A DNA stretch of 64,000 bases from an uncultured Coriobacteriaceae bacterium (GTDB lineage: Bacteria > Actinomycetota > Coriobacteriia > Coriobacteriales > Atopobiaceae). Made by a program: the position numbers and the translations under genes. Below are positions 5,232 to 59,824 of the stretch, piece by piece. How positions within the stretch are numbered: the first letter of the stretch is position 1; the number at the start of each line of letters is the position of its first letter. The stretch lies in NCBI GenBank assembly GCA_902793465.1, contig CADBDT010000001.1, forward strand, positions 1 through 64,000, in the 5' to 3' direction. The notes beneath the pieces are model-generated. The model was not told the origin of the DNA, did not search any database, and was given only the letters and a program-made list of their open reading frames with translations.

Positions 5232-5386
5232 TGCACGTAGCCTGCCCCCAAAGAGAGGCCAAATCCTTTAGGCGCCATGGACAAGCGCCGTGCTCAGACA
5301 GTCCTCACTTCGTTGCGGAACTGCGCGCGGCTGCTTTCCATGGTGCCTTGCGGATTTGGCCTCTCTTTGGGGGCAGTCTACGTGCA
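5232..5386. repeat. H-family long hairpin after the importer operon
   Basis: Arms of about 50 bp pair almost perfectly (TGCACGTAG...CCCCCAAAGAGAGGCC with GGCCTCTCTTTGGGGG...CTACGTGCA). They enclose the family core, GCCGTGCTCAGACAGTCC and GCGGAACTGCGCGCGGC. The same core recurs at 8.1, 12.3, 42.5 and 47.8 kb and inside sufD with different arms. The rest of the 5178-5541 gap is AT-richer and presumably carries the promoter of the next gene; no convincing -35/-10 pair was found. Confidence 0.8.
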
Positions 5387-8014: not shown

Positions 8015-8172
8015 CCCCAATTTGTCCTGCCCCTAAAGAGGCGTCGAATCCTTCCGGTGGCCCAAAAAGCGCCGTGCTCAAACAATCTTCGCATAGCTGC
8101 GGAACTGCGCGCGGCTGCTTTTTGGGCCGCCTCACGGATTCGACGCCTCTTTAGGGGCGGGACAAATTGGGG
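8015..8172. repeat. H-family long hairpin between htrA and sbcD
   Basis: Outer arms CCCCAATTTGTC/GACAAATTGGGG and inner arms CCCCTAAAGAGGCGTC/GACGCCTCTTTAGGGG enclose the core (GCCGTGCTCAAACAATC, GCGGAACTGCGCGCGGC). The arms are about 55 bp. The inner arm sequence is shared with the copy at 12.3 kb, so sbcDC lies between two close relatives. Confidence 0.8.
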
Positions 8173-12258: not shown

Positions 12259-12422
12259 AGAACCACAAATAGCCTGCCCCTAAAGAGGCGTCAGCTCCTT
12301 CCGGCGGCCCAGAAAGCGCCGTGCTCAAACAGTCCTCGCATAGCTGCGGAACTGCGCGCGGCTGCTTTTTGGGCCGCCTCACGGATCTGACGCCTCTTTA
12401 GGGGCAGGCTATTTGTGGTTCT
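12259..12422. repeat. H-family long hairpin after sbcC
   Basis: AGAACCACAAATAGCC pairs with GGCTATTTGTGGTTCT on the outside. CCCCTAAAGAGGCGTC pairs with GACGCCTCTTTAGGGG inside. The core is GCCGTGCTCAAACAGTCC...GCGGAACTGCGCGCGGC. It lies between convergent genes and nearly touches the stop codon of the minus-strand gene. Confidence 0.8.
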
Positions 12423-23106: not shown

Positions 23107-23213
23107 GGTGCCGTCAGGGGATATTCCCCTACGGGTACATCGTGGATATGCTTACTCGTAAAGGAATGCCCTGCTCGCGATGTACCCGATGGGGAGTATC
23201 CCCTGACGGCACC
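23107..23213. repeat. P-family palindromic element
   Basis: Outer arms GGTGCCGTCA/TGACGGCACC are unique to this site. The inner arms are the P core (CCCCTACGGGTACATCG / CGCGATGTACCCGATGGGG), and the loop is about 30 nt. Reverse-complemented, the loop begins AGCAGGGC like the loops at positions 1 and 45142, so this copy is inverted relative to them. It lies 45 bp upstream of the next start codon. Confidence 0.8.
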
Positions 23214-23257
23214 CCATCCCATCGCGAGTTCTCGGACAGCCACGAAGGGGGACGCGC

Positions 23258-30947: not shown

Positions 30948-32150
30948 TTATGCCTCCTCGCCTGCTGGGGAGTCGAGTCCGAGTCCCTCCACGAGGTCGC
31001 GAGCAACCTCGGCACCCAGCACGCTCGTGGCGCGTGCCAGCACGGTGGCGCGGACCTCGGGCGTCGGGGCGGCTATTACGGCCTCGTCAAACAGGGCGCG
31101 CACGTAGAGCGCCTCCGCCTCTTCTTGCGTAAGACCGCGGTCCGCTAGGTAGCCAATCTGCTCGGGACCAACGGAGCCGATGGTTGCACCGTGGTTGCCG
31201 GCCACGTCGTCCTCGTCGCACAGGATTACGGGCATCGTCTTGTTTACGACGTCGTCCGAAAGCACGAGCACGTTTTCCAGCTCGGCTCCTTCCGATCCCG
31301 ACGAACCATGCACCAGGTCGATGGTGGCGCGAAGCGCCTTTCGTGCGCGACCGTCCAGCACGCCGGACTCGCGAATGTCCGTGCGTCCGTTGCGCCCGCG
31401 CATGCGCACCACGTGGTTTATGTCCAGGCGCTCGTCGTCGCGGCCAAGGTAGCGACACGTGAGCTCGAAGCGCGCATCCGCGCCGTCGAGCGAGCAGCAG
31501 AGGCCCGCGGCTGTTGTCGCGGCCCCCAGGAAGAACTGACGCACGTCCACGCGGGCGCGGGCGTCTGCCGTAATTCCCACCGACTCTATGTGCTGACGCT
31601 CGTCGTTCGCGCACACGAACTCCAGCACGTGCACACGTGCGTCGCGCTCGGCGATTATGCGGACAAGTGCTGCAGAGGTGCTGTGCTGGGTGCTCGCTGC
31701 GGACCCCTCGGTCTTGTCGGCGGACTCAGACAGTCCTCGCTTCGCTTTGCTCGCTGCGGAACTCGCCGGCGACAAGACCGAGCGCCCCGCAGCGAGCACC
31801 CCCTCGTTGTTGGTTGCGATTACAACCGTGGCCTCGGCGCCGGCACGGACCATAACGCCCGTGTCCATGCTGGTAACCACAATGGGCTCGGTGCGCTTCT
31901 GGCCCGCGCGAACCTCCACGTAGTGCGCGTCGGCCGACTGCGACTCCACCCAGTCGGTAACCTGTTGGCCCATGCCGCACTCCATGCCTTCGAAGAGGCG
32001 GGGGAGCGCGAAGTACACGTCACCCTTTCGCGAGGCAAACGGCACGGTAAGGGTTATATCGTTGGTGCGCAGGTAGTTCCAAGTTTGTGCAGGCGGGGTG
32101 TTTACGCGCTCAAGCGTTACAGAACCCGCTGCGGGTTTTGTATCGGCCAT
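30948..32150 (-). CDS. sufD: SufD scaffold subunit carrying an H-element insertion
   Basis: A 400-aa SufBD-family protein that pairs with SufB and SufC. The conserved C-terminal beta-helix is clear (LDGRARKALRATIDLVHGSSGSEGAELENVLVLSDD, split here as DLVHGSSGSEGA and VLVLSDD; also CDEDDVAGNHGATIGSVG). Residues about 117-154 are low-complexity (SPASSAASKAKRGLSESAD) and are encoded by an H-family hairpin at 31689-31800. The overall length is still within the family range. ATG overlaps the sufB stop by 1 nt (TAATG). Confidence 0.92.
   Translation of the reverse strand: MADTKPAAGSVTLERVNTPPAQTWNYLRTNDITLTVPFASRKGDVYFALPRLFEGMECGMGQQVTDWVESQSADAHYVEVRAGQKRTEPIVVTSMDTGVMVRAGAEATVVIATNNEGVLAAGRSVLSPASSAASKAKRGLSESADKTEGSAASTQHSTSAALVRIIAERDARVHVLEFVCANDERQHIESVGITADARARVDVRQFFLGAATTAAGLCCSLDGADARFELTCRYLGRDDERLDINHVVRMRGRNGRTDIRESGVLDGRARKALRATIDLVHGSSGSEGAELENVLVLSDDVVNKTMPVILCDEDDVAGNHGATIGSVGPEQIGYLADRGLTQEEAEALYVRALFDEAVIAAPTPEVRATVLARATSVLGAEVARDLVEGLGLDSPAGEEA
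31689..31800. repeat. H-family hairpin inside the sufD coding region
   Basis: Outer arms GGTGCTCGCTGCGG (31689-31702) and CCGCAGCGAGCACC (31787-31800) pair. Inner arms CTCGGTCTTGTCGGCGG and CGCCGGCGACAAGACCGAG pair around a core containing GACAGTCCTCGC and GCTGCGGAACTCGCC. This is the same core logic as the intergenic copies, but here it is translated as part of SufD without a stop codon. Confidence 0.7.
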
Positions 32151-34426: not shown

Positions 34427-34527
34427 GCAGTAAGGAGGAAATTACCGAAATGGGATGCGTCATGGCCGGAGGGCGGCCCTCGCGTGTCTCATTGTCGCTC
34501 AGCGCTCACTGCGTTCGCTCGCTCGCT

Positions 34528-34833
34528 TTGCTCGCGATTCGCTTGCAAGAGACACGCAAGGGTCGGGCGCCTTCCGTTATGTAAACGCCAGCGGGCTGGA
34601 AATTGGTGCGCCTGCGGCGCGTCTTGCAGGGGCCGGGCTATTTCGCCCGCTTGGCGCTCACTGGCGTTTGCTCGCTCGCATTGCTCGCGATTCGCTTGCA
34701 AGAGACACGCAAGGGTCGGGCGCCTTCCGTTATGTAAACGCCAGCGGGCTGGAAATTGGTGCGCCTTCGGCGCGTCTTGCAGGGGCCGGGCTATTTCGCC
34801 CGCTCAGCGCTCACTGGCGTTCGCTTGCAGGAG
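34528..34833. repeat. Tandem duplication of a 153-bp unit
   Basis: Two adjacent copies (34528-34680, 34681-34833), both opening TTGCTCGCGATTCGCTTGCA, are nearly identical. The unit length is a multiple of 3, so frames stay open through both copies; however, there is no ribosome site and the composition is repeat-like, so I call this non-coding. Short GC-rich inverted repeats occur within each unit. Confidence 0.75.
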
Positions 34834-35153: not shown

Positions 35154-35280
35154 CTGGGGGAAGGCGGTGTTTCGTTGACCAACCTTTTGCCGAGCTCTCG
35201 AAGCATCCTTCTGCTCATGCACGCACTCAACACAACTCCAGCGAGCGCCGTTTCCGGCTCTTTCCCCACTTCTTCTGGAT
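35154..35280. other. Non-coding spacer before the palindromic array
   Basis: No gene, ribosome site or clear hairpin is seen. It separates the large inverted repeat from the first array unit. Confidence 0.4.
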
Positions 35281-36221
35281 AAATGCACGTGGTTGCGTAC
35301 AGTAGCTGCCAACAACACGCAAAAAACGCCGTTTCGGCGGCGTGCGGCTCCGCAAATGCACGCGCATGCGTATAGCGCTGGCCGACTGCACGCATATGCG
35401 TGTGTTTCCACTGCGTGGCGCTTCCCAGATGCACGTGGCTGCGCGCAGTCCCGGCCCACTACACGCAACGAAGTGCATTACCTGAGCGCGTGGCCGGCCA
35501 GATGCACGTTGGTGCGGGTAGTGGCGGTCAACTATACGCAAATACGTGCAATTCACCCGGCTACCTAAATGCACGTGGTTGCGTATAGTCCGAGCGTCTG
35601 CACGCAATGGCATGCATTTCCTGAGCGCGTGGCCGACCAGATGCACGTGGGTGCGGGTAGTGGCGGTCAACTATACGCAAATACGTGCAATTATGCAGCG
35701 CCCAGCTATCTAAATGCACGTGGTTGCGTATAGTGCTGGCCGACTACACGCAATGGCGTGCGTTTCGAACCCGTCCAGCTCCCCAGATGCACGTGGCTGC
35801 GTATAGTCCCGAGCGTCTGCACGCAATGGCGTGCATTTCCTGAGCGCGTGGCCGGCCAGATGCATGCGGGTGCGTGTAGTCCCGAGCGTCTGCACGCAAT
35901 GGCGTGCGTTTCCACTGCGTGCCGCTTCCCAGATGCACGTGGCTGCGTGCAGTCCCGGTCCACTACACGCAACGAAGTGCATTACCTGAGCGCGTGGCCG
36001 GCCAGATGCACGTTGGTGCGGGTAGTGGCGGTCAACTATACGCAAATACGTGCAATTCCGCAATGGCGTGCGTTTCGAACCCGTCCAGCTCCCCAGATGC
36101 ACGTGGCTGCGTGTAGTCCCGAGCGTCTACACGCAACGACGTGCGTTTCCGCCGCGTTCGACAGCCCAAATGCACGCGGGTGCGTGTTAAGGCGTACAAC
36201 ATCACGCATACGCGTGCATTT
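35281..36221. repeat. Regular 73-bp array of 13 palindromic units (BIME-like)
   Basis: Each unit is a 23-nt half (consensus RATGCACGTGGYTGCG plus TRTAGT), an 8-nt loop, the inverted half and a spacer of about 19 nt. Unit starts: 35281, 35354, 35427, 35500, 35567, 35639, 35712, 35785, 35858, 35931, 36004, 36095, 36168. Ten of the twelve intervals are 73 or 72 bp; one is 67, and one is 91 because an extra half-unit is present. Spacers come from a small recurring set (for example CCTGAGCGCGTGGCCGGCC four times, counting one variant). No cas genes are nearby. The layout resembles REP/BIME clusters with alternating short and long linkers. Confidence 0.85.
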
Positions 36222-38928: not shown

Positions 38929-39121
38929 GCGCCCCGCCGCCCCGGACTCTCTCGCAAGCGAATCACGAGCGCAGGCCAGCCCCGCTCTCTCCCGCAGCGA
39001 ATCGCGAACGAAGCGAGCGAGCGAACGAAGCGAGCGCTGAGCATGCGGGAGAGAGCGGGGCTGGCCTGCGCGCTCAACGGTTGTTCAGCGTGCGGGAGAG
39101 TCCAGGGGCGGCGGGGCGCGC
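38929..39121. repeat. GC-rich long hairpin upstream of gatC
   Basis: CGCCCCGCCGCCCC with GGACTCTCTCGCA, and GCGCAGGCCAGCCCCGCTC on the left arm, pair with GAGCGGGGCTGGCCTGCGC, TGCGGGAGAGTCC and GGCGGCGGGGCG on the right. The centre contains GCGAACGAAGCGAGCGAGCG-like direct repeats. It ends about 30 bp before the gatC ribosome site, so it would lie in the gatCAB leader if transcription starts upstream. No coding potential. Confidence 0.65.
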
Positions 39122-45141: not shown

Positions 45142-45249
45142 CCGTGCCGTTTGGGGATACTCCCCATCGGGTACATCGCGAGCAGGCCGATTCTTTACGA
45201 GCGGGATAACCCGCGATGTACCCGTAGGGGAATGTCCCAAACGGCACGG
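45142..45249. repeat. P-family palindromic element
   Basis: Outer arms CCGTGCCGTTTGGG/CCCAAACGGCACGG are specific to this site. The inner P arms CCCCATCGGGTACATCGCG / CGCGATGTACCCGTAGGGG flank a 31-nt loop beginning AGCAGGCC. It lies between divergent transcription units (Phd/RelE left, copper ATPase right), in the likely promoter zone of both. Confidence 0.8.
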
Positions 45250-55048: not shown

Positions 55049-55126
55049 GTGTGCCGCTTGGGGATACTCCCCCTGCGGTACATTGCTCTCAATGTACCGC
55101 AGGGGGAGTATCCCCAAGCGGCACAC
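55049..55126. repeat. P-like palindrome with short loop
   Basis: GTGTGCCGCTTGGGGATACT and its complement, then CCCCCTGCGGTACATTG / CAATGTACCGCAGGGGG around a CTCT-type loop. It shares GGGGATACTCCCC with the P family, but the inner motif reads GCGGTACATT instead of TCGGGTACATCG. It begins 30 bp after the kinase-fusion stop, so it may end that operon. Confidence 0.7.
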
Positions 55127-55242
55127 CGTCATCGGGCAATCTGAGGGAAGCGCCCCAAAGAAACTCTATTGCAAAAAGACTACGATAGAGCTCTAACCTG
55201 TGGTACGCTTTTTCGGCACGCAGAATACACAGGAGAACTCAC

Positions 55243-57709: not shown

Positions 57710-57817
57710 CTGTGCACAGAGGGGATACTCCCCATCGGGTACATCGCGAGAAGGTCAACCAGTCAAAGGAAGACTATCCGCGATGTACCCGTAGGGGAAT
57801 ATCCCCTCTGTGCACAG
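57710..57817. repeat. P-family palindromic element
   Basis: Outer arms CTGTGCACAGAGGGGATA / TATCCCCTCTGTGCACAG pair. The inner arms CCCCATCGGGTACATCGCG and CGCGATGTACCCGTAGGGG are the P core, and the loop is 30 nt (AGAAGGTCAACCAGTC...). It lies between the HAD gene and the surface-protein gene, both on the plus strand. Confidence 0.8.
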
Positions 57818-59523: not shown

Positions 59524-59562
59524 CTCCTAGGGGATACTTCCTCGCAGGTACATCGCGGATTG
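59524..59562. repeat. Partial P-family arm
   Basis: CCTAGGGGATACTTCC and GCAGGTACATCGCGGAT are a decayed left arm of a P element, lacking the right arm. It is directly followed by a full copy, so it may be a leftover of tandem insertion. A very short upstream ATG track of the neighbouring small gene is not involved. Confidence 0.5.
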
Positions 59563-59670
59563 GGGTGCACATTGGGGATACTCCCCTACGGGTACATCGC
59601 GAATAGGGCTTCCGTTGGTGTCTGGCTCATCCGCGATGTACCCGATGGGGAGTATCCCCAATGTGCACCC
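59563..59670. repeat. P-family palindromic element
   Basis: Outer arms GGGTGCACATTGGGGATACT / AGTATCCCCAATGTGCACCC pair perfectly. The P core reads CCCCTACGGGTACATCGCG with CGCGATGTACCCGATGGGG. The 30-nt loop (AATAGGGCTTCCGTTGG...) closely matches that of the element at position 1. Confidence 0.8.
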
Positions 59671-59756
59671 AAAACCTTTCCAAAAAGCGCGAAGCGCACA
59701 AATTTAGCACCTGTCCAGCGCAACATCGAGAGAAGGCCCCGGTTTTATCCCACAGC

Positions 59757-59800
59757 GAGTTCTGCAGCGAAGCGAGGACTGTTTGAGCTGAGCACAAAGA
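59757..59800. repeat. Solitary H-family core without long arms
   Basis: GCGAGTTCTGCAGCGAAGCG then AGGACTGTTTGAGC matches the inverted H core (GCAGTTCCGC...GAGGACTGTTTGAGCAC), but no pairing arms surround it. It could be a decayed or an early-stage copy. Nothing else is seen in 59671-59824. Confidence 0.5.
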
Positions 59801-59824
59801 CCAGGCGGGTGCTCGGGTCGCAAG

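Follow-up and report, generated by a model that had tools for sequence, protein, structure and literature searches.

The sufD gene of an uncultured Coriobacteriaceae bacterium carries an in-frame palindrome that belongs to a dispersed family of repeats, here called H, and comparisons within and between genomes show that the arms of these palindromes are kept complementary while their sequence changes. The history that we favour, at a probability of roughly 60%, is that an H palindrome inserted once in sufD, was tolerated in a permissive loop of the protein and has had its arms held complementary by templated correction at the DNA level. The evidence for movement and for template switching comes from sequence comparison, and neither event was observed directly. 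Coordinates given without a contig refer to the window, the whole 64,000-nucleotide stretch of DNA that was analysed.

The sufD hairpin comprises 112 bases and is tipped by the H core; a mismatched collar separates its outer from its inner arms (Table 1). As sense-strand RNA it folds at −76.4 kcal/mol, compared with −48.6 ± 4.0 kcal/mol for 200 dinucleotide shuffles, none of which folded as well (z −6.95); the opposite strand folds with a z of −6.3. The layout of outer arms, inner arms and core that the sequence-only reading had described was recovered at the same positions, with z about −7.

Table 1. The sufD hairpin, its host gene and the other H elements of the window
Feature	Position	Strand	Remarks
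sufD (400 aa), host gene	30948..32150	minus	From the ORF list; SUFBD_core PF01458, E 1.6e-45; matches E. coli SufD 1vh4/5awf
H hairpin element, predicted to be translated as SufD residues 117-154	31689..31800	minus	Fold z -6.95; missing from most congeners
Outer arm (right arm in sufD sense)	31689..31702		From the sequence; sister species carry homologous sequence; arm zone identical to four relatives at 23-24/36 nt, p<=0.0005
Outer arm (left arm in sufD sense)	31787..31800		Without counterpart in relatives; follows derived bases of the right arm
Inner arm, pairs with 31764-31782	31707..31723		From the fold
Inner arm, pairs with 31707-31723	31764..31782		From the fold
H core	31725..31763	plus	CTCAGACAGTCCTCGC (31725-31740), loop (31741-31755), GCGGAACT (31756-31763); exact or near-exact core at ~98 loci of this genome and in other phyla
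Other H element	5232..5386	plus	
Other H element	8015..8172	plus	
Other H element	12259..12422	plus	
Other H element, longer loop	42494..42640	plus	
Other H element, 78-nt loop	47683..47913	minus	
H core with decayed arms	59757..59806	minus	Orthologous to elements in G005 and G007

The host gene sits in the order sufC-sufB-sufD-sufS-sufU, which runs from 34338 down to 29222. Its reading frame is open across the hairpin, as had been claimed: the element supplies codons 117-154 with zero stops, and relative to the SufD of the related genome G003 the insert adds 37 codons to an intact ORF. The SUFBD_core domain is also intact, with residues 146-352 corresponding to profile positions 26-231 (E 1.6e-45). 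The insert had been expected where the N-terminal helical part meets the beta-helix; on solved SufD structures its site is instead an early turn of the beta-helix, near E. coli SufD residues 185-197 and about 25 residues inside the SufBD core. This loop is hypervariable, and in an alignment of 30 SufD sequences its length varies between a strand ending ATVV and TSAALVR. A single-sequence AlphaFold model of SufD reached a pLDDT of 37 and was set aside. The insert is probably translated in the cell and would be neutral for SufD; the hypervariability of the loop and a frame left open may explain why the protein tolerated it.

The H core recurs throughout the genome. At one mismatch or fewer, CTCARACAGTCCTCGC has 113 matches in this genome, compared with 0 for a reversed control pattern. 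We recovered 98 distinct copies, 87 of them with arms that score as paired (median 54 nt). Each consists of a constant apical core (CTCARACAG, a variable inner hairpin and GAACT[C/G]) borne on locus-specific arms of 20-70 bp. In relatives the inner hairpin is seen to vary as well, and the constant parts are CTCARACAG plus GAACT or AACT; a generalised core pattern ending AACTSGC undercounts the copies. Complementarity of the arms within a locus is ~0.93 at 30-60 nt from the core, whereas identity between loci is 0.44-0.62 and near random beyond 50 nt.

The 101 related genomes carry between 0 and 113 copies each, as is expected of a selfish repeat. Exact cores occur in isolates of other Coriobacteriia (Ellagibacter, Olsenella, Gordonibacter, Enorma and Collinsella) and in metagenome-assembled genomes of Bdellovibrionota, Omnitrophota, Hydrogenedentota, Planctomycetes and others, where the arms are different in each and some are AT-rich. 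No description of the H core was found in the open-access literature, and genus searches around G093 and G089 yielded no close pairs with shared loci. Core searches in phage, plasmid and E. coli sequences gave nothing beyond short, incomplete matches. One of these, a 19-nt hairpin found on IncN plasmids of enterobacteria (for example, NZ_CP026205.1 48266-48284, L288), has the sequence AGTCCTCGCTTCGCTGCGG and resembles the H core in its inner part.

Fold-back chimeras occur as a known artefact, and this genome is a 68-contig draft; like most of its relatives, it looks like a draft or metagenome assembly. That the palindromes are chimeric fold-back sequence created by assembly or amplification is nevertheless highly improbable, given that the same architecture is present in isolate genomes, including those of Ellagibacter, Olsenella and Gordonibacter, and that other species have decayed or remnant versions at this site in sufD.

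Placement was judged from a codon-usage gene call, with 92 copies classified. H copies are intergenic and close to the 3′ ends of genes (median distance 27 nt, compared with 136 nt to starts), and convergent gaps hold 29 of the 92. Coding sequence makes up ~84% of the window, so H strongly avoids coding sites, and sufD is the exception: it is the one gene, clearly coding, that has any of the 98 copies well inside it. A hypF-like ORF (L011, G000:C4 about 81061-82530) has a copy at its 3′ end that is read through as a C-terminal tail of ~50 residues, and a third coding-overlap call among the 98 is weak. Hairpins with H or variant cores also lie 3′ of a probable type II topoisomerase B-subunit gene in this genome (L289, G000:C11 about 105313-105546) and in G005, G001, G002 and G006 (L277 and L291-L293); the arms of these are unrelated to one another, apart from those of G001 and G002, which are a close pair.

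Other repeats share the window. A second hairpin family, with GATACTCCCC..GGTACATCGCGA arms and differing loops, occupies positions 1-92, 113-197, 23118-23237, 45154-45247, 55061-55149, 57722-57815 and 59531-59693, and one of its copies adjoins the H with decayed arms at 59787. At 34497-34543 and 38996-39042 and at L303 and L308, in similar 3′-end sites, locus-specific arms bear a further core type, GCTCAGCG..TTCGC with GCGAATCGCC; one locus of this type is orthologous to an H locus. Positions 35270-36190 hold 13 tandem units of ~73 nt each with a common ATGCACGTGG..TGCG motif, and 34511-34816 is a near-perfect 153-nt tandem duplication.

Relatives show that the sufD segment is absent or variable, as the sequence-only reading had anticipated. 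Across 30 SufD sequences and a nucleotide comparison, the insert is absent from G003, G004, G006, G008-G015 and other genera; conservation of the same residues in the SufD of distant genera was looked for and not found. The element is intact in this genome, and G005 and G048 carry a decayed copy in the same orientation. G001 and G002 retain 21 nt of it, a remnant that a deletion between GCGAG repeats explains. The sufD copy of G007 has an intact core in reverse orientation, different arms and a different encoded peptide. In a SufB+SufD tree all carriers of the insert or its remnant (this genome, G005, G048, G001, G002 and G007) form one clade with support of 0.98, and G003 falls outside it. 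One insertion would be the simplest history, with the G007 state needing either an inversion or a second insertion.

The state of G007 is also what lends most weight to a history in which the loop is a hot spot that H elements with ready-made arms entered separately, in the lineages of this genome, G005 and G001 and in G007, with no conversion. The G007 core is near-identical to the reverse complement of the core described here despite host flanks that are much more diverged, its arms and orientation differ, and orthologous loci at gene 3′ ends repeatedly hold hairpins with unrelated arms. We consider recurrent insertion rather unlikely, as the carriers are a single supported clade, the 60-nt stretch that follows the core aligns without gaps and is homologous in this genome, G048, G005, G001 and G002, and the left arm tracks lineage-specific changes of the right arm. 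Comparison of the right-arm zone with the insert-free G006 or G003 gave no significant homology, so that this zone could be either host sequence or ancestral insert. One clean empty site was found for H, at L275 relative to G001, and it comes from an element with long shared arms. The proposal that the element moves or forms in coding DNA thus holds for the insertion of an H-family element in coding sequence; the case is better read as a single ancestral insertion, with the arms rewritten afterwards, and insertions of this sort into coding DNA are exceptional (1 of 98 copies).

The two arms in sufD have different relationships to the sister sequences. The right-arm zone matches all four of G048, G005, G001 and G002 (p<=0.0005), whereas the left arm matches none (p 0.12-0.75); although it is without homology to the sisters, the left arm pairs with the right. 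Ten bases of the right arm are derived in this genome, and the left arm matches 9 of them, an agreement that would not be expected of arms evolving separately. The same pattern holds genome-wide in 45 copies that share one inner arm and provide 1080 pair cells: 709 are consensus, 260 are changed on both sides and paired, 83 are changed on one side and 28 are changed and unpaired, a ratio of both-sided to one-sided changes of ~3:1. A rule of polarity, by which the host-derived arm would always lie on the CTCA side, was suggested by two cases and was dropped, as the G007 arms could not be polarised.

Pairing could also be kept by selection on a functional RNA, with a transcript hairpin that stabilises, terminates or attenuates mRNA and, in sufD, tunes SufD relative to SufB. 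Consistent with this are the very stable fold, the proximity of copies to gene 3′ ends and an orthologous pair in G001 and G002, which has a common core, 4 compensated pairs and 8 one-sided changes that give G-U pairs; these intermediates leave some room for RNA-level selection. The mismatches left in the arms point the other way. G-U and A-C mismatches number 27 and 24, or 20 and 22 in transcript orientation, and because there is no G-U excess in either count, they argue for DNA correction rather than RNA selection. Element orientation in tandem genes is random (26 compared with 21), copies per genome vary from none to more than a hundred among congeners, and a search of the window against Rfam 15 gave no match at gathering score. 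No T-tract lies 3′ of the sufD hairpin and the other H copies inspected likewise have no T-run, which sets them apart from intrinsic terminators. Taken with these points, we judge an RNA function to be an improbable explanation of the pairing.

H resembles the Rickettsia palindromic elements (RPEs) yet is not one of them, and the known families all fail to fit. RPEs are multi-copy elements of ~100-150 bp that occur in frame in unrelated conserved proteins, where the extra peptide is tolerated (PMC10969869, summarising Ogata et al.). The H element in sufD is likewise a palindromic repeat in frame in a conserved ORF. However, RPEs belong to another phylum and have another sequence, fall into families with a conserved encoded peptide and are often within ORFs. 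In contrast, H is nearly always intergenic, its arms are locus-specific beyond the core and inner arm, so that copies are not homologous over their full length, and the sufD copies in both orientations (that of G007 being reversed) encode different peptides. H works like an RPE in being a palindrome that a protein tolerates, and its arms evolve like those of a quasipalindrome; it lacks defining features of RPEs and REPs.

REPs and REPINs are also high-copy extragenic palindromes, associated with TnpA-REP (RAYT); REPs measure 20-40 bp and have a GTAG or CGTC foot tag (PMC3733652, PMC8266576). They share with H a patchy distribution between related genomes and known intragenic cases, but H is 110-160 nt long and its feet are different at every locus, with no GTAG or CGTC tag. 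Genes for Y1_Tnp/RAYT are commoner in H-rich genomes (23/26 compared with 33/75; p 7e-5 overall and 0.0013 outside the genus, uncorrected for phylogeny). No H was adjacent to the RAYT genes examined and the H-rich G011 and G093 have no Y1_Tnp match, and we do not claim these enzymes as the mobiliser of H. In MITEs, derivatives of DDE transposons, terminal inverted repeats are conserved and the target is duplicated; the termini of H are not conserved, and the single empty site (L275/G001) would fit a duplication of 4-5 bp. Repetitive and double hairpin elements of mitochondria (PMC2800124) are also dispersed hairpin repeats, sometimes inside genes; those of sponges have conserved stems and variable loops, the reverse of H, and are organellar and unrelated in sequence.

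The evolution of the arms has closer parallels. Template switching at quasipalindromes, by which imperfect arms become more nearly perfect in E. coli, is the established process of this kind (PMC7202029), and in H, changes in one arm are similarly reproduced in the other, both in sufD and genome-wide. For the coding palindromes of Nematomorpha mitochondria, conversion has been proposed (PMC6649704); there, and on our reading in H, arms would be kept complementary even in coding DNA by conversion and not by function. Neither system has a constant repeated core, whereas H combines a repeated core with rewriting of the arms.

Under the single-insertion history with templated correction, one H copy would have entered the sufD loop in frame in the common ancestor of this genome, G005/G048, G001/G002 and G007, a placement supported by the tree distribution. 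The hairpin would extrude during replication, and polymerase would copy one arm from the other by template switching, which we infer to be the cause of the coordinated change. The arms would then drift together, and neighbouring host sequence could be drawn into the palindrome. In sister lineages the element may have decayed (G005/G048), collapsed to a short remnant (G001/G002) or been inverted or re-inserted (G007). New copies may spread by transposition based on single-stranded DNA hairpins, with the enzyme provided in trans. More tentatively, the H core could be a mobile seed that crosses phyla and turns any flank at its landing site into a palindrome; the element would bring the core alone, with one flank copied inverted onto the other side after insertion and locus-specific arms grown from host DNA, coding sequence included.

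In the sufD case a selfish palindrome would have been built into a conserved protein outside the Rickettsiales, in an instance that can be placed on a species tree. There the reading frame and the sister sequences let the changed arm be identified inside a coding gene. A repeat that unites a constant core, common to distant phyla, with arms made at each locus would be of a distinct kind, and could serve as a natural assay for template switching in bacteria.
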